IMG/VR virus record: IMGVR_UViG_3300030060_007244
Span: 1 to 22,415 of that record
DNA from: a virus
Strand: one strand, 5' to 3'
Length of the DNA: 22,415 bases
The notes under the pieces are model-generated. The model was not told where the DNA came from. It saw only the letters and a program-made list of their open reading frames with translations, and made no database searches. Of this stretch, positions 3,961-14,248 are shown in pieces (position 1 is the first letter of the stretch; every line of letters starts with the position of its first letter). Both the position numbers and the translations under genes were made by a program.

Positions 3961-5028
3961 ATGTCAAGCACATATTCAGATAGACTTAAATTAGAACTCA
4001 TGGCAACTGGCGCAAATGCCAATACATGGGGCACAAATACCAATAATAATTTAGAAGTTTTAGATGCCTTTGCGGCAGGATATTTATCTAAATCTGTAGC
4101 GGGATCTGCAAACATTACTCTAACGACAGCTAATGCTTCAGACACTGCTGAATCTTCAAACAAAGTTATTGAACTTACAGGTGCTCTGACAGGTGACATT
4201 GTTGTTTTCATACCGGCTGTCGAAAGTGAATATTTATTTTTTAACAATACAACAGGTTCTCAAACTTTAACTATAGCAGCCACAGGGCATACAGCTAACG
4301 GTGCGTTAGCTACTCAAGGTGCATATTCAAGAGTTTATTGTGATGGTTCTTCAGACATGAATGTTGAAGTATCAACTTCCTTATTAGGAACTACTACTTT
4401 TAAAGATACTGTTACTGCTGGTGGTGGTAACATTATTCTTAGAACTAATGGTGCGGTGTCTGCTACAACCTATACAGGTAGTGGTGCTAATCTTACTGAC
4501 ATTGAGGCTTTTCCCTCTGGAACAAAACAACTTTTTTATCAAGCTTCTGCACCAACTGGTTGGACACAAGACACAACTGCTGCATTAGGTAACGCTGCCT
4601 TAAGAGTTGTTGTTGGTACAGGTGGAGGCACAGGCGGTGCTGATACTTTTCAAACAGTTTTTTCAGATTCAAAAACTACAGAATCAAAAAGTTTACCCGT
4701 CACAGGAAGTTTAAGCGGTACGGTTGGATCTACAACTTTGACAACACCACAAATTCCAAGTCACAATCACGCAATAAATAAAACTGCTACTCAAGGACAA
4801 AACCCCGCACCTCTAAGATCTTTCCAGCCTGGTGCATTTCTGTCAAGAAGAGCTGAACCTACTAATCCAGGTTTTTCCACTGAAGCTTTCCCAAACACAG
4901 GTGGTGGCGGTTCTCACACTCACCCATTTACAGGAAGTTTAAGTAGTGCAACTACCGCATCCTCAAGCTTTGCAGTCCCATCAATGGACGTAAAACATGC
5001 AAACGTCATCATAGCTGCTAAAGACTAG
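3961..5028 (+). CDS. Tail fibre / collar-type receptor-binding protein
   Basis: This 355-residue protein probably forms the fibre that contacts the host. The N-terminus (TYSDRLKLELMATGANANTW followed by GTNTNNNLEVLD) resembles the attachment domain of many phage fibres, where 'LkLel...G...gtWG...N.NL' recurs. A beta-rich shaft follows. From about residue 184 the segment FPSGTKQLFYQASAPTGWTQ and ALRVVVGTGGGTGG is the classic entry to a phage tail-collar domain. SHNH (H268, H270) and SHTH (H319, H321), with GGGG between them, match the metal-binding HxH pairs of T4 gp12-type collar domains, which bind a metal ion on the trimer axis. The stop overlaps the next GTG start (TAGTG). Its neighbours, the glycosyltransferase and oxygenase genes, make it a candidate substrate for modification; that is inference. 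Confidence 0.8.
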   Translation: MSSTYSDRLKLELMATGANANTWGTNTNNNLEVLDAFAAGYLSKSVAGSANITLTTANASDTAESSNKVIELTGALTGDIVVFIPAVESEYLFFNNTTGSQTLTIAATGHTANGALATQGAYSRVYCDGSSDMNVEVSTSLLGTTTFKDTVTAGGGNIILRTNGAVSATTYTGSGANLTDIEAFPSGTKQLFYQASAPTGWTQDTTAALGNAALRVVVGTGGGTGGADTFQTVFSDSKTTESKSLPVTGSLSGTVGSTTLTTPQIPSHNHAINKTATQGQNPAPLRSFQPGAFLSRRAEPTNPGFSTEAFPNTGGGGSHTHPFTGSLSSATTASSSFAVPSMDVKHANVIIAAKD

Positions 5029-5510
5029 TGCCAATATTTGACCCAGATGGGACTTGTCCTCTTCTTAAAAAGAAGTGTATAAAACATCGGTGCATATGGT
5101 ATAATATGCTTCAGGGTAAACACCCTCAAACAGGGTTAGATGTACAGGAATGGGGCTGTTCTATAGCATGGTTACCCTTACTTTTAGTAGAAAATTCAGG
5201 AAAAATATCCCAGACAACAGCAGCAACTGAAAGTTTTAGAAACGAAATGGTTCAATCGAATAATATAATGACAAAAGTTTTAGCACAAAGTGGAGATGCA
5301 CAAAAAGCGATGGCCACGGCAGGATCTATTTTTGAATTAATAGGCGATCATCAAAAAGCAATTGATACTAATGATCCTAATTATGAGGATAAAACTATTT
5401 TACAACTAAGCAATAATAAGGTAAAAGTTAAGAAGAAGCCTAAAAAGGCTATGACTAAAAAGGTGAAAAAAAATGGCAACAACCGTAAACAACACAACAG
5501 TTCAAAGTAG
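5028..5510 (+). CDS. Cys-containing phage protein with Lys-rich tail, unknown function
   Basis: This 160-residue protein starts at GTG overlapping the stop of the fibre gene by one base. The N-terminal 45 residues contain four cysteines (C10, C17, C22, C44) with two His and aromatic residues nearby (CPLLKKKCIKHRC and EWGCSIAWLP). This could be a zinc or iron-sulphur site, though I cannot identify the metal. The order 'CPLLK..CIKH.C.WY ... P.TG ... W.CSIA..P.LL.E' is familiar from uncharacterised marine phage proteins. The middle is helical, and the last 30 residues are a Lys-rich tail. The tail's final 38 bases overlap the start of the next gene, which has its own AGGTGA. The position after the fibre suggests a tail-related role, with low certainty. 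Confidence 0.7.
   Translation: MPIFDPDGTCPLLKKKCIKHRCIWYNMLQGKHPQTGLDVQEWGCSIAWLPLLLVENSGKISQTTAATESFRNEMVQSNNIMTKVLAQSGDAQKAMATAGSIFELIGDHQKAIDTNDPNYEDKTILQLSNNKVKVKKKPKKAMTKKVKKNGNNRKQHNSSK
5461..5466 (+). promoter_or_regulatory. Shine-Dalgarno supporting the overlapping start at 5473
   Basis: AGGTGA lies 6 bases before the ATG at 5473, inside the Lys-tail codons of the upstream gene. It supports the unusually long 38-base overlap between the two genes. Confidence 0.5.
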
Positions 5511-5925
5511 AATTACAATACTTTTTGATGCTGATGGTCCCTTAACAGGTGATGGACCAGCAAAAGGCACCGGAAACACTCAATCAGATATATATTTAGA
5601 TGACAATATTCAATTAAATATCAGATCTCATACAGAGATCGATTCTAATATTCATGCCTTACAATGGGATGCCACAACAAACACTGGACAGATAGAGTTT
5701 ACAGACACAAGAGACAATGAGTCTATATCCTCATTTCCTCAGTGGGCTACAAATGTAGTGATTAGAGCTGAAGCTCAAAATACTTGGCAAAGCACTTATG
5801 ATTCTACATATGAAGGTCATTCAGATGCTGGAGCAGAAGATGATTCTGCAGCAGTGACAGCCGCAACTACGGCTGCCAACACAGCGAGAACAGATTATCT
5901 TGCTGCACACAGTATAACTTACTAA
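5473..5925 (+). CDS. Small acidic phage protein, unknown, probably tail-associated
   Basis: This 150-residue protein is acidic and rich in Thr, Asp and Ala. It contains TILFDADGPLTGDGPAKGTG near the N-terminus, a central ALQWDATTNTGQIEF, a conserved-looking FPQWATNVVIRAEAQNTW, and a helical Ala/Thr C-terminus ending AAHSITY. No catalytic motif is visible. The start at 5473 is chosen because an AGGTGA precedes it, although it overlaps the upstream gene by 38 bases. It is the last gene before the AT-rich enzyme island, and its own composition is like the structural genes. A chaperone or accessory role for the fibre is possible by position only. Confidence 0.65.
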   Translation: MATTVNNTTVQSRITILFDADGPLTGDGPAKGTGNTQSDIYLDDNIQLNIRSHTEIDSNIHALQWDATTNTGQIEFTDTRDNESISSFPQWATNVVIRAEAQNTWQSTYDSTYEGHSDAGAEDDSAAVTAATTAANTARTDYLAAHSITY

Positions 5926-5945: not shown

Positions 5946-6494
5946 ATGCGAGAATATATACTAGAAGTAAAAAAATTAATTCCCGAAAAATACTGTCAAA
6001 AAATTATTTCTTATTTTGATTATAATTTAATAGATGCACAAACAACAGGGCTCGGTTTAGCCAAAGATGTAAGAAATTGTAAAAGTAGGAATGTTATGAG
6101 ACCAGAAACTTTTGGTGAAAGGATATGCTCTAATTTTATTCAAACAAAATTATTAGAATGCGTTGATTATTATAAAGATAAATACTCACATTTCAATTCT
6201 AACAAAATAACATCATGTGAACTACTTAAATACCAGCATAATAAATATAAAACAGGATATCAATATCACGTAGATATGGGATACAAAGTTTCCGATCGAC
6301 ACGTATCGATATCCATATGCTTAAACAACGATTTTGTAGGTGGTGAATTTAAATTTGATTTGCCGGAAGGCGAAATACAAATGCCACAAAATGTAGGAGA
6401 TGCAATAATTTTTCCTTCAAACTTTATGTTTCCACATCAAGTAAATCAAATAACAAAGGGCACTAGATATGCTTTAGTAGCATGGATAATATAA
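5946..6494 (+). CDS. 2-oxoglutarate/Fe(II) oxygenase (prolyl-4-hydroxylase-like)
   Basis: This 182-residue protein is a compact double-stranded beta-helix oxygenase that would use Fe(II), O2 and 2-oxoglutarate to hydroxylate a substrate. The iron triad is visible as H108-V-D110 (YHVDMG) and distal H164 (FPHQV). R174 (GTRYALVAW) is placed to bind the 2-oxoglutarate carboxylate. The stretch between them has the standard pattern: SISICLNN, VGGEFKF, GDAIIFPS. This is the clearest oxygenase of the window and resembles PKHD-type hydroxylases. The substrate is unknown; protein prolyl or lysyl, sugar or lipid are all possible. It opens the AT-rich enzyme island after a 20-base gap with no clear ribosome binding site. 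Its stop overlaps the next start as TAATG. Confidence 0.88.
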   Translation: MREYILEVKKLIPEKYCQKIISYFDYNLIDAQTTGLGLAKDVRNCKSRNVMRPETFGERICSNFIQTKLLECVDYYKDKYSHFNSNKITSCELLKYQHNKYKTGYQYHVDMGYKVSDRHVSISICLNNDFVGGEFKFDLPEGEIQMPQNVGDAIIFPSNFMFPHQVNQITKGTRYALVAWII

Positions 6495-7099
6495 TGAAAC
6501 CTATTTTTATTAAAGAATTTTTACCTAAAGAAATCTTAACTGTTGTTCATAATTATTGTTTGTTAAAATATCAAAATCCTCAATTTTTGAATAATGATTC
6601 TCAAAGTAACTCTTTCATATCACACCATAATGATTATTTAATGGAATCATTAATGGATCTAAGCACCCCTGTTGTAGAAAAAAATGTACAAAAAAAATTA
6701 TTTCCGACTTATTCTTTTTTTAGAATTTATGATCGACTGTCTGACTTACCAGTGCATACAGATAGACCCGCTTGTGAATACACAGTTGCTTTAAGTTTGG
6801 GGTCTGACCCTGTTGAAAAGCCTTATGAAATATTTGTAGGTGAAGCGGACGACACATCTGATTATAAATATTATGATAATTCTAGAAAAAAATTTAACAG
6901 ATATCGAATCGATTATAAATTTCCCATGGTTCCTAACAATGCAATAATTTTTAAAGGCATGGAAAAAATACATTGGAGAGAATATTGTGAGCATGATTAT
7001 TTTATGACCGTTTTCTTACATTATGTCGATCAAGAGGGCGATTATAAAGATCATAAATTTGATAAGAGAGATCGCATAGGTACTAATTTAAAAGATTAA
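6494..7099 (+). CDS. 2-oxoglutarate/Fe(II) oxygenase-like protein
   Basis: This 201-residue protein starts at the ATG at 6494, which overlaps the upstream stop as TAATG. An in-frame ATG at 6482 would add four residues but overlap more, and I prefer the later start. The HxD motif is H88-T-D90 in LPVHTDRPACEYTVALSL, and the distal His is H160 in KIHWREY. A following MTVFLHYVDQEGDY segment and KFDKRDR end match a phage oxygenase type in which 'HWR ... HYVD..G' recurs. The usual Arg ten residues after the distal His is not obvious, so the cosubstrate-binding residue may differ. It probably acts with the adjacent oxygenase and glycosyltransferase; the substrate is unknown. Confidence 0.7.
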   Translation: MKPIFIKEFLPKEILTVVHNYCLLKYQNPQFLNNDSQSNSFISHHNDYLMESLMDLSTPVVEKNVQKKLFPTYSFFRIYDRLSDLPVHTDRPACEYTVALSLGSDPVEKPYEIFVGEADDTSDYKYYDNSRKKFNRYRIDYKFPMVPNNAIIFKGMEKIHWREYCEHDYFMTVFLHYVDQEGDYKDHKFDKRDRIGTNLKD

Positions 7100-7100
7100 T

Positions 7101-7904
7101 GTGAATAAAATTCTTTATAAAATAAGAATTGGCTTAGGCCTTGGAGATGTGTTTTGTGCGTCTGGTGCCTTAAAAAAACTTACTCAAAAATTAGACGCTA
7201 AAGTTTTTGTTGAAACAGGTCAACCCTCAGTCTTTGAAGATCAGCCTCATGTAATAAAAGCGTTTAGAGGAGCTTATGATTATTTAGATATTGACATTGA
7301 AAATCTTTACAAAAGTTTTGATAAAATTTACGTTGCAGATTATTATAACGAAAATCACTTAAAGTCTAAAACTAACATTGTTGAGGCGTACTGTGAATCT
7401 ATTGATGTAGATAAAACCTCTTTACCTTATTTGTTAGTGGATAAAGATAAGTTTAATAGTTTTGAGTTTATTAATGACGATTATATTTTTGTTGCACTAT
7501 CTGACAAAATAAAACCCTTTGTCAGTGAAATAGGTTCATCAAAACATCTTTCTAACAATTACTGTAAAGATTTGATATACGCCATTCAAAAAAGCTTTCC
7601 AAATTATAAAATTGTAGATATTGACAGTTTAAATCCAAATATACATGACAAAAAAGAATTACTTTACATTGCTATGAAAGCGAAAAGTTTTGTAGCGGTT
7701 GATGGTGGAATGGTGCACATAGCGTCTAATCAACCAACTTTTAAGAAGGGAGTTTGTTTATATCGTAATCAAGATTGTGTAGATTCTTTTGGGTACAAAG
7801 AACAAACTAATTTAATTTCAGACACACCTTTAATTGGACCCTACGTATCAATAGAAAAAATTATAAATGAACTTAATAAAATTATAGATCAAAATGTTAA
7901 CTGA
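7101..7904 (+). CDS. GT9-like (heptosyltransferase-type) glycosyltransferase
   Basis: This 267-residue protein starts at GTG 7101, one base after the upstream stop. The N-terminus IGLGLGDVFCASGALKKL matches the opening of GT-B family 9 enzymes, where 'GlGD.l...p.l..L' forms the acceptor-side loop. The C-terminal half contains DKKELLYIAMKAKSFVAVDG then GMVHIAS (D201-G-G-M-V-H206). This corresponds to the family's nucleotide-sugar site, 'l..a...v..D.G..HlA'. GT9 enzymes usually transfer ADP-heptose to lipopolysaccharide core. It is shorter than cellular heptosyltransferases (about 320-350 residues), so donor and acceptor may differ. The last 11 bases overlap the next oxygenase. In a phage this suggests modification of the host surface glycan or of a virion protein. 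Confidence 0.68.
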   Translation: MNKILYKIRIGLGLGDVFCASGALKKLTQKLDAKVFVETGQPSVFEDQPHVIKAFRGAYDYLDIDIENLYKSFDKIYVADYYNENHLKSKTNIVEAYCESIDVDKTSLPYLLVDKDKFNSFEFINDDYIFVALSDKIKPFVSEIGSSKHLSNNYCKDLIYAIQKSFPNYKIVDIDSLNPNIHDKKELLYIAMKAKSFVAVDGGMVHIASNQPTFKKGVCLYRNQDCVDSFGYKEQTNLISDTPLIGPYVSIEKIINELNKIIDQNVN

Positions 7905-8418
7905 AAAAATATTATTTAAAGAGTCTGCTTATCTTACTAAATACGAAGGAGATACAAATGTTATAGATAAACACATAGAGCATATTTTACTATTTGATAA
8001 AGGACGTAAAGGAAGTAATGAGGGGGGCTATCAAAGTCATGATATTACTTTTGGTTTTCATGAATTACTTACTTTTACACAAAAGTGTGCCGTAGAATTA
8101 GAACCAAGTTTGATCCTTTCAAATTTTTGGTTAAACGTAAACAAAGGAAATAATTATAATTCAGAACACATACATGAATTAAATGGTGCATCTGCGGTTT
8201 ATTACCATAAAGTTTGCTGTGATAAATCTCCTATTTACTTTAAACATTTATGTTCTCAGGTTGTATTGGGCACACCAAAATTCTATCCTAAAAACGGCGA
8301 TTTAATATTTTTTCCTGCTTACTTACCTCATGGAGTACAAGGGTGTGGTAATCCAGAACATGAAAGAATTTCTTTAGCTTTAAACTTTAAAATAAATAAA
8401 CACTCTTTAGGATTATGA
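7894..8418 (+). CDS. 2-oxoglutarate/Fe(II) oxygenase-like protein, HxH type
   Basis: This 174-residue protein resembles the small oxygenase-like family known as TIGR02466. The core is SNFWLNVNKGNNYNSEHIHE, then LNGASAVYYH, which fits the family's 'W.n.n..g..n..H.H....sgv.Y' pattern. A GDLIFFPAYLPHGVQ and an ERISLALNF segment follow. Candidate metal ligands are H92, H94 and distal H146, with R158 for 2-oxoglutarate. The HxH in place of the usual HxD is typical of this family rather than a mutation, though the metal ligation is unproven. It overlaps the GT9-like gene by 11 bases and the methyltransferase-like gene by ATGA, so it sits tightly between transfer enzymes. Confidence 0.68.
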   Translation: MLTEKILFKESAYLTKYEGDTNVIDKHIEHILLFDKGRKGSNEGGYQSHDITFGFHELLTFTQKCAVELEPSLILSNFWLNVNKGNNYNSEHIHELNGASAVYYHKVCCDKSPIYFKHLCSQVVLGTPKFYPKNGDLIFFPAYLPHGVQGCGNPEHERISLALNFKINKHSLGL

Positions 8419-8903
8419 ATAAAGTAATTCCACAACTTACCTTTGATTTTATAGAATGGATGGAAGAACAAGAAACAAGCGATAAAACCATTGTTGAATT
8501 TGGTTCTGGTAATTCAACTTTATATTTTAGTAATAAATTTAAAAAGGTTATTACTTATGAAGATGAACCGCAATGGATAGAAATGATTAAGTCTAGAAAT
8601 ATAGAAAACATACATATAAATTTTTTGGACTATAATTTTTATAAAAAAGAACCTGATTCTTTCAAAAACGTTGATTTTATTTTAATTGATAATAACCCTC
8701 GTGATAATAATTCACGACTATACGTGGCTCAAGCTTTAATAGAAAAAATTAATTATCAAAATACGTTGGTGTTAGATAATGGCAATTGGAACGGAGATTG
8801 TTATTTTTATTTACGAACAAAATATAAATCTTATCATGACTTTATAGGTATAAACCCAAGGGGAGATAGAACAGTAACTACAGTTTTTTATGACAGAAAA
8901 TAA
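8415..8903 (+). CDS. SAM-dependent methyltransferase-like protein
   Basis: This 162-residue protein has a class I methyltransferase-like layout. Motif I is TIVEFGSGNSTLYF (E28-F-G-S-G-N-S), which would bind S-adenosylmethionine. An acidic E49 (ITYEDEPQW) sits at the end of the second strand, where the ribose is normally held. VDFILIDNNPR (D87, D92) and TLVLDNGNW (D121) follow at the strand 4 and 5 positions. It is shorter than most methyltransferases and lacks a clear substrate domain, so it could be a minimal O-methyltransferase or a degenerate relative. ATGA overlap with the upstream oxygenase and a 14-base overlap with the next suggest one co-expressed set. The target is unknown; a sugar hydroxyl or carboxyl would suit the neighbouring enzymes. 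Confidence 0.62.
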   Translation: MNKVIPQLTFDFIEWMEEQETSDKTIVEFGSGNSTLYFSNKFKKVITYEDEPQWIEMIKSRNIENIHINFLDYNFYKKEPDSFKNVDFILIDNNPRDNNSRLYVAQALIEKINYQNTLVLDNGNWNGDCYFYLRTKYKSYHDFIGINPRGDRTVTTVFYDRK

Positions 8904-9465
8904 TTTTCATCAAATATATGAGAGTAAAATTTACAGAGGTGTGCTTGATAATGAGGTGTGCCAACAATCTAAAAAATTTATTGAATCTTTTAAAGATAAA
9001 TTTACTGAGTACAAGTGGGATTGTCCTCTTAAAACATCACTTAATTTAACAAACAATATTTTAAATATTGTAGAGTTAAGACAATTAAAATTTAATATTT
9101 TATCTCATATAGATAATTATATGTTGCAAACAGAAAAGTTTTTTGATGGATTCATAGATAATTCATGGATTAATATTTATGAAAAAAACTATTATCAAGA
9201 ATTTCACAATCATGTAAGTGAAATTCATAAATGTATAAGTGGTGTCGTTTATCTAACAGAAAAAAACTCAAGTATCATTTTTGACACAAATCATGCTAAA
9301 AATTTAATTCCTGAATTCTCAGATATAATAATATTTGAGGATGATATGTTTCACAGAGTTAAGTCTAATGATGAAGAATTAAGAATAAGTTTAGCTTTTA
9401 ATTATAGAAAATGTGTTCCATGGCATGGGTTAAAAAAAACAAACAAGGAGAAAACAAATGATTAA
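8890..9465 (+). CDS. 2-oxoglutarate/Fe(II) oxygenase-like protein, HxH type
   Basis: This 191-residue protein is of the same TIGR02466-like type as the gene two places upstream. The signature is SWINIYEKNYYQEFHNHVSE followed by ISGVVYLTE, with a distal DMFHRVKS and ELRISLAFNYR. Candidate ligands are H106, H108 and H155, and R165 is the 2-oxoglutarate candidate. The first 85 residues are helical and Lys/Asn-rich. G+C is extremely low here: the 60 bases at 9061-9120 contain only 8 G or C. The start overlaps the methyltransferase-like gene by 14 bases. Its last codons hold the AAGGAG for the glycosyltransferase that follows. The two HxH enzymes flank the methyltransferase, suggesting a duplication followed by divergence. 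Confidence 0.7.
   Translation: MTENNFHQIYESKIYRGVLDNEVCQQSKKFIESFKDKFTEYKWDCPLKTSLNLTNNILNIVELRQLKFNILSHIDNYMLQTEKFFDGFIDNSWINIYEKNYYQEFHNHVSEIHKCISGVVYLTEKNSSIIFDTNHAKNLIPEFSDIIIFEDDMFHRVKSNDEELRISLAFNYRKCVPWHGLKKTNKEKTND
9445..9450 (+). promoter_or_regulatory. Strong Shine-Dalgarno for the GT-A glycosyltransferase
   Basis: AAGGAG lies 7 bases before ATG 9458 and within the end of the upstream gene. It fixes the start despite the 8-base overlap. It is the clearest ribosome binding site in the AT-rich island. Confidence 0.6.
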
Positions 9466-10267
9466 ACCAGAAGAACTAAAAGATAAAAACTTTAAAGTTT
9501 TTTTAGGAATGCCCATGTATGGAGGTATGTTGTCTGAAGCTACATTACATGGATTGTTAGAGTTGCAACAATGGTCAATGTCTGCAAACAAAAATGTTGC
9601 TATGCGAATACAAACCATGGGTAATGAAAGTTTGATTACCCGCGCAAGAAATACAATAGTATCTATGATGATGGATCAAAACGATTTTGTGGCCACACAT
9701 CTTTTATTTATAGACGCTGATATAGGATTTTCTTGGCAAAACGTAGAAAGACTACTTTGTGCAGATAAAGACATAGCCTGTGGAATATATCCAAGAAAAC
9801 ATATTTATTTAGAAAAAATTAAAAAAATTTTAGAAGAAACACCAAACGCTACACCAGACGATATTGAAGCTAGAGCCTTGGGGTACAATGTTAATTTTGA
9901 TGACCCACATAACTTAAAAGGAGAAAATGGTTTTTTTAAAGTAAACGAAGCCGCTACAGGTATGATGCTTGTAAAGCGAGAGGTTTTTCGAACTATGTTT
10001 AAAAAGTTTCCTGAGAGAAAATACGAGTCTGATCAAATTGTAAACGGCCAATCTTACAAATCAGATAATTGTTACGACCTTTTTGCTGTTGGTCCTTATA
10101 TGACTTTAGATCAAAAGAGATACTTATCTGAAGATTATTATTTTTCTAGACTATGGACAGAGGAGTGTGGTGGAGAAATATGGGCCGACTTAGGTATGCC
10201 TTTAACTCACTTTGGTAATAGAGCTTTTAAGGGTCATGTAGGAACTTTGGTTGCTAAAAAAGAGTAA
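9458..10267 (+). CDS. GT-A-type glycosyltransferase (GT2/Anp1-like)
   Basis: This 269-residue protein has the features of a GT-A nucleotide-sugar glycosyltransferase. FLGMPMYGG opens the first strand. ESLITRARNTIVSMMM and HLLFIDADIGFSW follow, with D86-A-D88 as the DxD that binds the metal and sugar nucleotide. The run DIACGIYPRK, the central AATGMMLVKREVF, the EDYYFSRLW acceptor-side segment and a late PLTHFGN (H251) match a glycosyltransferase type common in phages and related to GT2/Anp1. Length is typical for a single catalytic domain without a membrane anchor, so it is probably cytoplasmic. It starts behind a strong AAGGAG and ends in TAATG with the next oxygenase. Donor and acceptor are unknown. 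Confidence 0.78.
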   Translation: MIKPEELKDKNFKVFLGMPMYGGMLSEATLHGLLELQQWSMSANKNVAMRIQTMGNESLITRARNTIVSMMMDQNDFVATHLLFIDADIGFSWQNVERLLCADKDIACGIYPRKHIYLEKIKKILEETPNATPDDIEARALGYNVNFDDPHNLKGENGFFKVNEAATGMMLVKREVFRTMFKKFPERKYESDQIVNGQSYKSDNCYDLFAVGPYMTLDQKRYLSEDYYFSRLWTEECGGEIWADLGMPLTHFGNRAFKGHVGTLVAKKE

Positions 10268-10746
10268 TGAATGTTATAGATAATTTTTTACCTGAAGATG
10301 TTTTTTTGGAAATAAAAAACAATCTTCTTAGTTTAGATTTTCCTTGGTATTACAGTAGCGCTGTTGCCTCTGATCAAGACGACAGTGATTTTTATTTCAA
10401 TCATAATTTCTATGAATTTGAAAGCTCTAGAAGTTCTTGGTGTCATAAAATAGTTAATCCTTTGTTAGGAAAATTGACTTTTAATAATTTAGTTAGAGCA
10501 AGAGCAAATCTTTATACAAGAAAAACAGAACCAGTTCCAAACGGTTTTCACATAGATCAAAATCATCGTCATACGGTGGCTTTATTTACGATTAATACAA
10601 ATAATGGTTACACGCTTTTCAAAGATGGAACAAAACACCAATCAGTTGAAAACACTATGTTACTTTTTGATGGATCTCTTGAGCACGCTAGCGTCGCACA
10701 AACAGACGAAAAAGTAAGGGTAAACATCAATCTTAATTTAATATAG
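10267..10746 (+). CDS. 2-oxoglutarate/Fe(II) oxygenase-like protein, HxD type
   Basis: This 159-residue protein is a short double-stranded beta-helix oxygenase candidate. The metal ligands are visible as H95-I-D97 (NGFHIDQNH) and H140 (SLEHASVAQ). R151 (EKVRVNINLNL) is placed for 2-oxoglutarate about eleven residues after the distal His, as in the family. HTVALFTINTNNGYTLFKDG gives the strands between them, and MLLFDG is the usual turn before the distal His. It overlaps the glycosyltransferase by one base (TAATG) and is the last gene of the AT-rich island. A 31-base gap follows, then the nozzle gene. Hydroxylation of a sugar or of a protein residue are both possible. Confidence 0.68.
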   Translation: MNVIDNFLPEDVFLEIKNNLLSLDFPWYYSSAVASDQDDSDFYFNHNFYEFESSRSSWCHKIVNPLLGKLTFNNLVRARANLYTRKTEPVPNGFHIDQNHRHTVALFTINTNNGYTLFKDGTKHQSVENTMLLFDGSLEHASVAQTDEKVRVNINLNLI

Positions 10747-10777: not shown

Positions 10778-12604
10778 ATGCCATTAGTTAATTTTAGACC
10801 AGCACCAGGTATTAATAAGGAAGTCACTGACTATACTGGTCAGGGTAAGTGGACTGATGGTGATATGGTTAGATTCTTTCAAGGATCTGCACAAAAAATA
10901 AAGGGTTGGGAAAGGTTTCTTTCAACTACATTAGTCGGTGTGGTTAGAGATCAACACGCTTGGGTTGCTCTTGACGGTACAAGGTACAACGCCTTTGGCA
11001 CTGATAGAAAGCTCTATGTTTTTGAAGAGGGTAGGGCCTATGACATAACTCCTATTAGAGAAACACAAGCTTTGACTAATCCATTTACCACTAACGGTAC
11101 TACATCTGTAGTTGTTACCGATACAGGTCATGGTGCACAAAAAGGAGATTTTGTTACCTTTGATTCTTTCTCTGCTATAGACGGACTAGATATGAACAAA
11201 GAGTTTGAGGTAACATCTTTAGCCAACTCAGACGCTTATGTCGTAACTACTACATCGGCTGCATCAGGCTCTACATCTGGTGGTGGAGGTTCAGGTAATG
11301 CTAAATATCAAATAACTATTGGTCCTGAGCTTTCTACTTCAGCTTTTGGTTGGGGCACAGATACATGGGGTTCAAGCACCTGGGGCACACCCTCAGCAAC
11401 ATCTAATGTAACCTTAGAAGCTAGACAATGGTCATTAGATAACTTTGGTCAACTATTGATTGCTACAGTTTTAAATGGAGGAGCTTTTGAATGGAGTCCT
11501 ACCTCTGGTGTATCTACAAGAGCCACAGCCATAACGGGTGCTCCGACTGCATCTAGATTAAGTTTAGTTTCTACACCAGATAGGCATTTATTGTTTTTTG
11601 GCACAGAAAATACGATAGGCACAACCGGTTCGCAAGATGATTTATTATTAAGATTTTCAAATCAAGAAGATAGAAACACTTATCAGCCAACAGCAGAAAA
11701 CACTGCAGGATCTTTACGTATTGCTGACGGATCACGGATCGTGGCCGCAGAAAGATCAAGAGGTCAGATATTAGTATGGACAGATACATCTTTACACTCT
11801 TTACAATTCATTGGGCCACCCTTTACTTTTGGTTTAAGACAATTAGGTCAGAATTGTGGTATTATAGGTAGTCATGCGGGTGTTGATATTAATGGTGTAA
11901 GTTATTGGATGTCACAAGATTCATTTTTCTTATTCGATGGCTCCGTTAAAAAATTACCTTGTACGGTAGAACAATTTATTTTTAATAATATAAACGTAAC
12001 TGGATCAGAGAACGCCTTTGCAGGACATAATGGTGAGTTTAATGAGATTATGTGGTTTTATGCTAGAACAGGATCTGACCAGATTAATGCTATAGTTGCC
12101 TATAACTATTTAGAGCAAACATGGTGGACTGGCACTTTATCAAGAACAACATGGATTGATAGGGAAGTATATGATAATCCTATAGCGACAGAGTACAGTT
12201 CTACAACTACTGCTAACAATGAAGTTATAAGTGGATTAACTGATGGTGCCTCATCAGTGTTTTTACATGAAACAGGAAACAATGGTGATGGTGCTGCAAT
12301 AACTGCTTTTGTAAAATCAGGTGTTGTTCAAATAGGAGAGGGTAATGACTTTTCTTTTGTATCAAAATTAATACCCGATATAGAGGATCAAGAAGGCGTT
12401 TTAAATGCTAAATTAGAATTTAAAAACTATCCTAATAATAGCACAAGCGTCACAAAAACAGTAAGCTTCCAAGATAATACGGATTTTGTTAGCTTACGAG
12501 GCAGAGGTCGAGAGTTTACCGTTAATGTTGTATCTAACACGACAGGAACAGCATGGAGATTAGGAACTCAAAGATTTGATATACAACCTGATGGTAGAAG
12601 ATAA
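10778..12604 (+). CDS. Tail nozzle / phage stabilisation protein (P22 gp10-like)
   Basis: This 608-residue protein resembles phage stabilisation proteins of the P22 gp10 type, which form the nozzle under the adaptor and plug the short tail. The N-terminus PLVNFRPAPGINKEVTDYTG with GKWTDGDMVRFF, then a KIKGWERF segment, is characteristic: the family opens 'mp...f.pGi.......g.....w.dg..VRf..g...k..Gw'. The body is beta-rich and consistent with a beta-propeller: repeated short units such as RHLLFFGTEN, RGQILVWTDTSLHSLQF, VSYWMSQDSFFLFDG and NEIMWFYARTG. A WGxxx triplet at W192, W197 and W202 echoes the repeat protein upstream. There is no good ribosome binding site. Its last codons overlap the cupin gene. 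Placement ahead of ejection proteins matches the P22-type order. Confidence 0.68.
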   Translation: MPLVNFRPAPGINKEVTDYTGQGKWTDGDMVRFFQGSAQKIKGWERFLSTTLVGVVRDQHAWVALDGTRYNAFGTDRKLYVFEEGRAYDITPIRETQALTNPFTTNGTTSVVVTDTGHGAQKGDFVTFDSFSAIDGLDMNKEFEVTSLANSDAYVVTTTSAASGSTSGGGGSGNAKYQITIGPELSTSAFGWGTDTWGSSTWGTPSATSNVTLEARQWSLDNFGQLLIATVLNGGAFEWSPTSGVSTRATAITGAPTASRLSLVSTPDRHLLFFGTENTIGTTGSQDDLLLRFSNQEDRNTYQPTAENTAGSLRIADGSRIVAAERSRGQILVWTDTSLHSLQFIGPPFTFGLRQLGQNCGIIGSHAGVDINGVSYWMSQDSFFLFDGSVKKLPCTVEQFIFNNINVTGSENAFAGHNGEFNEIMWFYARTGSDQINAIVAYNYLEQTWWTGTLSRTTWIDREVYDNPIATEYSSTTTANNEVISGLTDGASSVFLHETGNNGDGAAITAFVKSGVVQIGEGNDFSFVSKLIPDIEDQEGVLNAKLEFKNYPNNSTSVTKTVSFQDNTDFVSLRGRGREFTVNVVSNTTGTAWRLGTQRFDIQPDGRR

Positions 12605-13136
12605 GCTTATACAACAATTAAAAAGTCAAAAGATGTCTATTACAGAGGACACTATTTTAGAAAGATTGTTAGATAGATATCGTTGGCCTAAACTTTATTC
12701 AAGTACCCTCCAACCAAGCGTTGAGGCAATAAAAGAAGATGGCACTAAACACCAAGATTTTTTTGATGATGACGATTATATAAATTCATTAGATTGTATA
12801 AAATCTTATGAGGAGGGCTACTCTTTAATAATTTCTAACACTGGCACTTTATGTAAAGACCTTTGGCTTATTCAACAACTCTTAAATCAAAACTATCAAA
12901 GACACATAAATTGTAACTTATACTTTGGTAATGGTAAAAAATCAGTATCTTTTCCTAAACATAATCATGAATATCCCGTTATTGTTAAAAACATATATGG
13001 CACATCTAAATGGATAATTGATGGAAAAGAAGTTATTTTAAAAGATCAAGATGTAATTTGGTTTGATAAGGGCATAGATCATCAAGTGGTAGAAATAAGT
13101 GATGCAAAATTATCTTTGACATGTAATATGGAATAA
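12591..13136 (+). CDS. Cupin-fold protein, possible Fe(II) oxygenase
   Basis: The 181-residue reading from ATG 12591 overlaps the nozzle gene by 14 bases. A TTG at 12576 would add five residues and is less likely. The N-terminal third is helical. The C-terminal part has a cupin or JmjC-like barrel: PKHNHEYPVIVKNIYGTSKW (H124, H126, E127) followed by VILKDQDVIWFDKGIDHQVV (H164). This matches the pattern 'H.H(E)...vf.qi.G.k.w ... l..GDv..f..g..H.v' in which two His, one acidic residue and a distal His hold a metal. It could be a 2-oxoglutarate oxygenase or a non-enzymatic binding cupin. The stop overlaps the next small gene (TAATG). Confidence 0.58.
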   Translation: MVEDKLIQQLKSQKMSITEDTILERLLDRYRWPKLYSSTLQPSVEAIKEDGTKHQDFFDDDDYINSLDCIKSYEEGYSLIISNTGTLCKDLWLIQQLLNQNYQRHINCNLYFGNGKKSVSFPKHNHEYPVIVKNIYGTSKWIIDGKEVILKDQDVIWFDKGIDHQVVEISDAKLSLTCNME

Positions 13137-13309: not shown

Positions 13310-13658
13310 TGTTTTTAAAAGATTTATAACTAACGTTACTACAACAGACCTGACAACGGTGTTTACTGTTCCAACTGCTAATGTAGCAGCTACACCTCCA
13401 GTTCCTGTGTCTACTTTCATTGTTAAAACAATAAACACTCATAACTATGACGGGTCTTCAGCGGTAACTGTCAATGTAGACCACAATGACGGCAGTGCTG
13501 ACTTTCAAATATTTCAAGTTGACGTAGCGGCCTCTAACACAAATACCATAAGCACTAGCATGGTGTACCAAGAGGGTGATTCTATGAAGGTTCAAGCAAA
13601 CGCTGCTTCTAGAGCTATGATTGAGGTATCTATATTGGAGATAAAACAACAACAATAA
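13302..13658 (+). CDS. Small beta-rich phage protein, probable minor virion component
   Basis: This 118-residue protein starts at ATG 13302, eight bases inside the previous gene. It is rich in Thr, Val, Ala and Asn, with alternating strands (TTVFTVPTANVAATPPV, TFIVKTINTHNYDG, VTVNVDHNDG, MIEVSILEI). MADVFKRF at the start is common among small structural proteins of environmental phages. No catalytic residues stand out. An AAGGAG lies 14 bases upstream, rather far. A head-decoration or tail accessory role is inferred only from composition and neighbours. Confidence 0.65.
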   Translation: MADVFKRFITNVTTTDLTTVFTVPTANVAATPPVPVSTFIVKTINTHNYDGSSAVTVNVDHNDGSADFQIFQVDVAASNTNTISTSMVYQEGDSMKVQANAASRAMIEVSILEIKQQQ

Positions 13659-14248
13659 TGTATGTAATAGCAGACGTACCTAAAGAAATATTAAGTATCT
13701 TAGATGGTGTTATTGAAGAAAAGGGTTTATCGCCTTTGAATCAAGATCTTGCCGGCAACATTAAACATGAGTATGCCATACCAAAAGGTAAAGCTGCAGT
13801 CTCACCAATGTTAATGCAAATGATAATAAAGCATCAAGAAAAATATCCAAATTATTTCAAAAAAGCACACTCCACAATAAACTATAAAGCTTGTGAAATT
13901 GAGCTATTTAATCTGTGGGTAAACTTTCAAAAAAAATATGAGTTTAATCCAATGCATGTGCATGATGGTTTATATAGTTTTGTGATATGGCACAAGGTGC
14001 CCTACACTATGAAAGATGAAAAAGAAAGATTAGCTAACATGATGGATAATGATTTTAGAGCAGGTATGTTTGCTTTCTTTTTTTCTGATCCGTCAGGTAG
14101 AATTACACAAGAGGCTTTACACGTTGATAATAGCTGGGAGGGTAAAGTGGCTCTTTTTCCGGCTAATTTAAATCATTGTGTCTATCCTTTTTACACGTCT
14201 GATGAGTACAGAATCTCTATATCAGGTAACCTCGGTTTTAAGATATAA
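13658..14248 (+). CDS. 2-oxoglutarate/Fe(II) oxygenase-like protein, HxHD type
   Basis: This 196-residue protein is an oxygenase candidate of the HxH type. Its core is ELFNLWVNFQKKYEFNPMHV and HDGLYSFVIWHKVPY, with H100, H102 and D103. The distal part is WEGKVALFPANLNHCVYPFY (H173) and EYRISISGNLGF (R185). The spacing of twelve residues between distal His and Arg is typical. The 'H.H.g..SFv.w..iP' pattern recurs in oxygenase-like proteins of phages. Unlike the main island, it stands alone among small structural genes; it overlaps the upstream stop by TAATG. It is the seventh oxygenase/cupin-type gene in about 8 kb. A short gap of 40 bases follows. Confidence 0.72.
   Translation: MYVIADVPKEILSILDGVIEEKGLSPLNQDLAGNIKHEYAIPKGKAAVSPMLMQMIIKHQEKYPNYFKKAHSTINYKACEIELFNLWVNFQKKYEFNPMHVHDGLYSFVIWHKVPYTMKDEKERLANMMDNDFRAGMFAFFFSDPSGRITQEALHVDNSWEGKVALFPANLNHCVYPFYTSDEYRISISGNLGFKI

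Follow-up and report, generated by a model that had tools for sequence, protein, structure and literature searches.

A variable oxygenase and glycosyltransferase island between the fibre and stabilisation genes of marine phages: a candidate locus for virion modification

Among described systems, the HTVC023P-type pelagiphages offer the nearest counterpart to the locus considered here: eight 2-oxoglutarate (2OG) oxygenase genes, classed as auxiliary metabolic genes (AMGs), have been reported in them, accompanied by a "ferrochelatase" partner and by three glycosyltransferases, and heme and iron regulation has been discussed for the 2OG and adjacent "ferrochelatase" genes (Wittmers et al. 2022, PMC9599517). 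A transcriptome paper on HTVC027P names gp73 as an iron-requiring enzyme (PMC12753301). Filaments and virions are glycosylated elsewhere: flagellin glycosylation involves FlmG in Caulobacter (PMC7591256) and a dedicated island in Geobacillus (PMC5109656), and virion glycosylation has been reported for mycobacteriophages Che8 and Rita (cited in PMC11256854). The subject of this work is a window of 22,415 nucleotides, positions 1 to 22,415 of the 38,539-base virus record IMGVR_UViG_3300030060_007244, which carries, between its tail fibre gene (FIB) and its stabilisation or "nozzle" gene (STAB), an island of eight plus-strand open reading frames, g1 to g8 (5946-10746), that include candidate 2OG/Fe(II) oxygenases and glycosyltransferases.

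The HTVC023P-type phages resemble the window in having STAB relatives (42% for HTVC023P and 40% for HTVC027P; 39-45% across DSL-LC04, HTVC027P and HTVC023P), 2OG genes in the same pre-STAB slot of the more distant, cultured HTVC023P and HTVC027P, and a g7 homologue (27-31%). They differ in that this homologue and another glycosyltransferase lie just downstream of STAB, apart from the oxygenases. Whereas Wittmers et al., in the text available, treat the 2OG genes as host-metabolism AMGs paired with a ferrochelatase, in our case the link of the set is to the fibre module, and the partner has a 2OG fold. Flagellin glycosylation islands share with this one the placement of enzymes beside the gene for an external filament protein, and some cellular relatives of g7 adjoin flagellin/FlbT or FliI-MotB. 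FlmG, a TPR-type transferase, differs in kind from g7, which is of the GT-A type. Che8 and Rita, as far as the available text goes, have phage-encoded glycosyltransferases for virion proteins in common with our proposal, but there glycosylation is demonstrated, concerns the capsid rather than a fibre slot, and is described with no mention of a 2OG set. The collagen-type system (LH3, COLGALT1 and the viral hydroxylase-glycosyltransferase) likewise joins a hydroxylase to a GT-A enzyme, and it is matched weakly by the g7 fold and by the g1 sequence; the island, however, encodes separate small proteins, no collagen-like repeats were seen in the window's fibre, and the comparison is one of working, not of membership.

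A modification island is real and strongly structured in this common group of marine phages. With a probability of about one half, we propose that it is a virion-protein modification (glycosylation) island within the tail operon. A virion target is supported by the fixed slot in a structural operon, with g7 in every contig compared; by the first two oxygenases, OX1 (g1) and OX2 (g2), which track fibre type while g7, STAB and the upstream gene s10 do not; by a flagellar context of cellular g7 homologues that decays with distance; by the nearness of g1 to PiuC and protein hydroxylases; by the retention of g7 catalytic residues in 142 copies; by the top, though weak, PDB folds of the g7 model, which are collagen hydroxylysine glycosyltransferases; and by the enzyme classes found in the slot in relatives, which are typical of glycan tailoring. 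In outline, the fibre-matched oxygenases would act during synthesis on the fibre or the adjoining small tail proteins, hydroxylating their side chains, and g7 would then place a sugar on the new hydroxyl, or on a native Ser, Thr or Tyr of the same protein. The variable genes (the GT9-like, extra 2OG and methyltransferase-like genes here; sulfotransferase, carbamoyltransferase and epimerases in relatives) would extend or cap the glycan. Because these caps are freely exchanged, the product on the tail would be a variable coat, much as with a flagellin glycosylation island, and might tune receptor binding, protease resistance or stability. So read, the kind of system appears to be a known one, virion or filament glycosylation, and the link of a 2OG set to a fibre module appears to be new. 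Our literature search found no direct report on fibre hydroxylation in cyanophages and similar phages, and none linking a 2OG set with tail fibres. The sequence-only reading had called the combination under-described; pelagiphage 2OG genes and glycosyltransferases are in fact published (PMC9599517), and what stands of the claim is the tie to the fibre slot, to which the available part of that paper makes no link.

Contents of the slot and coupling of its first two oxygenases to fibre type

Scans of IMG/VR returned 289 relatives of STAB and 207 of g7, and the comparison set comprises the 68 contigs that span fibre to STAB, with near-identical loci merged and the window included. The gene g7 lies inside the slot in 68 of 68 contigs, and in 40 of 40 when contigs were recruited by STAB without g7; one or two 2OG oxygenases stand directly behind the fibre module in 67. 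Oxygenases number 1 to 6 per slot (mean 3.85), a count from which the cupin d22 is left out; some minor families of the relatives (OX26, OX28, OX33, OX48, OX66, OX67 and OX82) were called 2OG on visual inspection of HxD-type motifs, with no Pfam match to back them, and the names of the sulfotransferase cluster c57 and the GT-like cluster c51 likewise come from inspection by eye with no Pfam match. Around g1/g2 and g7, which are near-constant, g3, g4, g5, g6 and g8 come and go, giving 53 different gene orders. DUF6065 occurs in 18 slots, a GT9-like gene in 16, a methyltransferase-like gene in 10, a sulfotransferase in 5, a second GT-like gene in 2, and a carbamoyltransferase and an epimerase in 1 each; g8 (OXc) is found in 6, a cupin in 3, and the combination of GT9-like gene, methyltransferase-like gene, OXb and OXc in the window only. 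Further oxygenases occupy a second slot past STAB in 37 of the 42 contigs with sufficient downstream sequence. In Roseobacter phage CRP-902 no gene of the corresponding slot is annotated as 2OG. Another marine virus, Marine virus AG-345-E08 (L006 11376-24516), has a longer island, read by eye, where RCC1-like repeat proteins are interspersed with genes of 2OG, sulfotransferase-like, epimerase-like and HldE-like type.

OX1/OX2 and g7 thus form the core of the island, around which accessory genes are shuffled, and the whole is not one unit; the 53 arrangements rule out a single transferable element, and with it the earlier expectation that the set is gained and lost as a whole. Nor does the proposed single linear pathway of hydroxylation, glycosylation and methylation survive as a fixed scheme, given that the accessories vary and only OX1/OX2 and g7 are near-constant. 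The same reading had named, as a finding that would count against it, genes scattered and independent of each other in relatives; they are indeed shuffled, which agrees with that finding in part, but they stay confined to one slot. Free shuffling, the 53 arrangements and the low G+C content (24-31%) of the variable genes could also point to a neutral cargo hot-spot, a low-constraint site that gathers unrelated morons with no joint pathway. We consider this very unlikely: g7 is always present, in single copy in the 11 records examined and with catalytic residues invariant in 142 copies, the contents are strongly skewed to oxygenases and group-transfer enzymes, and OX1 and OX2 distances correlate at 0.8.

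Four main fibre modules alternate upstream of the slot, namely u14-u13, a Gly-rich fibre with TFA20, TFA37, and TFA56; TFA20, TFA37 and TFA56 take the position of u13 in the other types, and TFA37 carries the PF16778 tail assembly chaperone domain. The pair u14 and u13 occurs together in 39 of the 68 contigs and is swapped along with the fibre. Similarity was expressed as mean normalised bit score within versus between fibre types and assessed by permutation. On this measure FIB scored 0.54 within and 0.25 between types, OX1 0.50 and 0.09, and OX2 0.63 and 0.18 (p 0.001 each), whereas the controls hardly differed (g7 0.84 and 0.83, p 0.08; STAB 0.87 and 0.86, p 0.03, a tiny effect), and s10, directly upstream of FIB, did not track fibre type (0.67 and 0.66, p 0.25). 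In 250 pairs with near-identical STAB and different fibre type, OX1 similarity was 0.11 and that of g7 0.86; in 453 pairs with diverged STAB and the same fibre type, OX1 reached 0.48 and OX2 0.62. The oxygenase pair swaps with the fibre and g7 does not, and the exchanged block is therefore the fibre, the small tail protein and the oxygenase pair. Within the u13 type, distances correlate at 0.80 for OX1-OX2, 0.55 for OX1-u13 and 0.18 for OX1-STAB, the within-type Mantel tests counting the window twice.

Enzymes of the island

Judged by comparison of sequences, g1 to g8 are real genes, because dozens of IMG/VR contigs carry homologues in which the catalytic residues never vary. Five candidate 2OG/Fe(II) oxygenases had been listed, and all five hold up as 2OG oxygenase-like: g1, g4 and g6 by Pfam, g2 by fold, and g8 by its phrog_274 match and motif. 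The iron triad of the 2OG-Fe(II) superfamily, HxD...H, is kept in g1 (n=28), g2 (n=28) and g8 (n=10). In a Pfam search g1 matches PF13640 (5e-12), and its iron-site residues H108-x-D110...H164...R174 are invariant in 28 representatives; against the PDB, its family profile finds PiuC, prolyl 3-hydroxylase 1 and bacterial prolyl 4-hydroxylases at 3e-7 and weaker, with a weak match to the viral "procollagen lysyl hydroxylase and glycosyltransferase". The putative oxygenases g4 and g6 match PF13759 (6e-11 and 3.5e-8), g4 also matching PDB 3bvc/2rg4 at about 3e-8. They lack the canonical HxD...H triad and have HxH...H in its place (in g4 H92-x-H94...H146 invariant and R158 nearly so; in g6 H106-x-H108...H155...R165 invariant), as does the aligned solved PF13759 relative 3bvc. 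The last gene, g8, matches phrog_274 (3e-42), and H95-x-D97...H140...R151 is invariant in 10 diverse members; this conserved 2OG motif contradicts the "DNA endonuclease V" label of phrog_274, which, judging from the alignment, is likely an error. That label was noted on family members at 10267-10746 of the window and at L003 9310-9792.

For g2, a predicted structure of high confidence (predicted local distance difference test, pLDDT, 91) has the double-stranded beta-helix fold; the best Foldseek match scores 2.5e-8, nearly all matches listed are 2OG dioxygenases, and H92-x-D94...H164 is invariant in 28 members. The g2 family is labelled "ferrochelatase" in PHROGs (phrog_2954) and in phage records, an identity ruled out by the HxD...H motif, the 2OG fold and the profile search, in which 0 of 28 members matched the ferrochelatase model (E 0.1). 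Genes so labelled (phrog_2954, phrog_3531) were seen at 6482-7099 of the window, in HTVC023P as gp67 (L004 9295-9915) and at L003 11051-11707. The phage "ferrochelatase" genes of these two families appear to be 2OG oxygenases. Deposited annotations of HTVC023P and 023Pt_psg01 suggest that the "ferrochelatase" of Wittmers et al. belongs to phrog_2954; if so, the g2 model suggests that the published partner of the 2OG genes may itself be a 2OG oxygenase, and the 2OG-ferrochelatase pairing apparently rests on a wrong label.

The fold of g2 lies near the small-molecule and sugar oxygenases MysH, SnoN/SnoK and AviO1, and up to six 2OG enzymes in one slot are many for peptide hydroxylation alone. 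These enzymes might then modify not the protein ahead of sugar transfer but the sugar, or some other small molecule, once transfer has taken place, which would make the island a set for tailoring the glycan of a virion glycoprotein. We hold this decidedly unlikely, as protein hydroxylases are among the relatives of g1, and OX1/OX2 follow the fibre, while oxygenases working on sugars would be expected to vary with the glycosyltransferases.

By its motifs g7 is a GT-A glycosyltransferase, as had been suggested. Alone it has no Pfam match, and 8 of 48 family members match Pfam Anp1; its DXD (86/88), ED (225/226) and HxG (251/253) residues are invariant across those 48 diverse homologues, and DXD, xED and the C-terminal His are kept in 142 clade copies, one copy being truncated ahead of the last two. 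The best PDB profile match, STIV A197 (PDB 2c0n, E 0.0035), spans the DXD region; A197, known as a viral GT-A protein, is the best sequence match but comes from an archaeal virus, and the match is remote and partial. A structure predicted from a shallow alignment (pLDDT 58) has COLGALT1 and LH3 as weak top Foldseek matches in the PDB (4e-3 to 6e-3), and in BFVD its best matches are phage and PBCV-1 proteins; overall the matches are mostly GT-A.

The variable g3 is probably a GT9-like glycosyltransferase: it falls short of the Pfam cut-off for PF01075 (E 0.07, 12.9 bits against a cut-off of 22), and profile-profile comparison with hhalign aligns it with the E. coli heptosyltransferases WaaF/WaaC/WaaQ (E 8.5e-5, probability 60%). 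This likeness to lipopolysaccharide (LPS) heptosyltransferases is one ground for supposing that the island remodels a host-surface or receptor glycan (LPS or polysaccharide), for instance against superinfection or re-adsorption to debris; others are the sulfotransferase, carbamoyltransferase and epimerase of relatives, typical of surface glycans, and the g7 homologue of Prochlorococcus AG-409-J16 (L165 7986-8783, 51-52%), the closest one of cellular origin, which lies near apparent polysaccharide genes (sugar-transferase and glycosyltransferase genes by look). We think such a role unlikely. The pointer that the sequence-only reading drew from GT9 homology is weak, g3 being present in 16 of 68 contigs and g7 in every one; within the slot, nothing was recognised as a gene for a transporter, a lipid carrier or an acyltransferase; and this reading would lead one to expect OX1/OX2 to match the fibre only where receptor and fibre changed in concert. 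The evidence for a methyltransferase is slighter: g5 has a motif-I-like ExGSGxST stretch resembling an S-adenosylmethionine (SAM) motif, weak KsgA matches (E 0.06-0.09) and an hhalign alignment to the PF13578 family of 21 residues at 9% probability. It is weakly methyltransferase-like, that one stretch being all that bears the assignment out.

Homologues of g7 and the proposed target of modification

Outside the phage clade, a scan of GTDB genomes gave 252 relatives of g7, the best 80 mostly alphaproteobacterial. Of 68 cellular loci, 24 have a flagellar gene no more than five genes from the homologue, and nine have flagellin within two genes (the flagellin/FlbT setting); a second recurrent setting is FliI(-FliJ)-g7-MotB-MotA in Acetobacter and Gluconacetobacter. 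The flagellar fraction is 14-20% at 1-3 genes and drops to 2-7% at 5-8, in loci that are not independent, several coming from species of one genus. Bradyrhizobium cluster 16, at first a candidate FlaF, is a carboxymuconolactone decarboxylase by Pfam and is excluded from the flagellar counts. The uncharacterised phrog_1574 family to which g7 belongs thereby gains a functional lead, protein and possibly flagellin glycosylation. The surroundings of cellular g7 genes yielded no members of these 2OG oxygenase families, apart from those on one short phage-looking contig. A 4.3 kb contig in a metagenome-assembled genome of Maricaulis (L167 357-4001) holds GT9-like, 2OG and g7 homologues; it is probably a phage fragment and gives a weak host hint.

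Several points weigh against a virion target. Modification of the virion is itself something that we infer here from genes alone. HTVC023P and HTVC027P have their g7 homologue apart from the oxygenases, flagellar neighbours within five genes are missing from 44 of the 68 cellular loci, and the g7 model is of low confidence. Correlations inside a single fibre type are moderate and overlap, and tracking of the fibre can arise from physical linkage, OX1/OX2 adjoining the fibre module, which the within-type Mantel tests cannot tell from coevolution; tracking is therefore support, not proof. In the T4-like phages phiM12, OspM_OC and DLP_6 the g7 homologue sits in the replication module near gp46/gp45, and in groundwater phages it adjoins recombination genes. 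In ACG-2014f it is found among tail collar fibre genes, and from these replication, recombination and tail-fibre settings it follows that the family is not tied to one context. More closely, the homologue stands between gp46-type and sliding-clamp genes in the Sinorhizobium and Ochrobactrum phages, and in Stenotrophomonas phage DLP_6 it lies close to the clamp gene.

Those replication and recombination neighbours agree with DNA base modification, in which an oxygenase would hydroxylate a base and g7 glycosylate it in base-J style. Phages with TET-type 2OG and glycosyltransferase pathways are known. Thymidine hypermodification genes occur in related pelagiphage clades (PMC9599517). Against this, the island lies in a tail operon; neither thymidylate synthase nor a Tet_JBP domain was found in 11 related records (four of them of 57-59 kb), the Tet_JBP search having no working positive control; modification of DNA would give the oxygenases no reason to vary with fibre type, as they do; and the closest relatives of g1 are PiuC and protein hydroxylases. 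DNA modification is improbable in our estimate, and less likely than a virion target.

The virion had been preferred at the outset because of the position in the tail module, and that preference now has indirect support from the fixed slot, the fibre tracking of OX1/OX2 and the flagellar context. Few unexplained genes are as common in marine phages as those for 2OG oxygenases, which are generally put down to host metabolism; their tie to the fibre module and to a constant protein-type glycosyltransferase points to a testable substrate, the virion. More tentatively, and with the odds against so broad a claim, abundant marine podophages may practise combinatorial tail modification, in which fibre-specific hydroxylases and one constant flagellum-related glycosyltransferase are combined with exchangeable sulfo-, carbamoyl-, methyl- and hydroxyl-modifying caps. 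If this is true, host recognition would be altered by tail chemistry as well as by protein sequence.

Layout of the window

The eight genes had been described as tightly packed between the fibre genes and the nozzle gene, and both the coordinates first listed and the near gap-free junctions are confirmed (overlaps of 13, 11, 4, 14, 8 and 1 bp and one 1-bp gap). The preceding tail gene ends 20 bp before the island, and STAB begins 31 bp past its end. G+C content is 24-31% in seven island genes and 34% in g7, below the 35-41% of the flanking fibre module and STAB. The inventory was largely right in its enzyme classes for g1 to g8 and had overlooked a sixth 2OG gene and a cupin gene beyond STAB (Table 1). 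A tRNA search within the window found none.

Table 1. Features of the window, and g7 homologues in replication modules of other phages
Feature	Position	Strand	Basis
FIB, tail fibre gene, candidate substrate	3961..5028	+	phrog_31104 6e-24; phrog_12796 tail fiber 3e-7
u14, small conserved fibre-module protein, Lys-rich C-terminus	5028..5510	+	relatives
u13, small fibre-module protein directly before the island	5473..5925	+	relatives
g1 (OX1), 2OG/Fe(II) oxygenase	5946..6494	+	PF13640, motif
g2 (OX2), 2OG/Fe(II) oxygenase fold	6482..7099	+	model, Foldseek, motif
g3, probable GT9-like (heptosyltransferase-type) glycosyltransferase, variable member	7101..7904	+	hhalign
g4 (OXb), PF13759-type putative 2OG oxygenase	7894..8418	+	PF13759, HxH...H
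g5, possible class I SAM-dependent methyltransferase (weak)	8415..8903	+	motif-I-like stretch
g6 (OXb), PF13759-type putative 2OG oxygenase	8890..9465	+	PF13759, HxH...H
g7 (GTA), GT-A glycosyltransferase, phrog_1574 family	9458..10267	+	motifs, fixed slot
g8 (OXc), 2OG oxygenase-like	10267..10746	+	phrog_274, motif
STAB, stabilisation/nozzle structural protein, downstream slot boundary	10778..12604	+	phrog_3287 1e-82
Cupin-fold protein	12576..13136	+	PF07883 1e-6
OXd, sixth 2OG oxygenase, in second tailoring slot past STAB	13658..14248	+	PF13759 1.2e-9; phrog_81 5e-30
Replication-module g7 homologues	L159 6962-7939; L161 6974-7780; L160 6989-7846		

The C-terminus of the fibre, at about 4760-4930 of the window, contains SHNH and SHTH (HxH) motifs; HxH motifs occur in the metal-binding fibre tips of T4.

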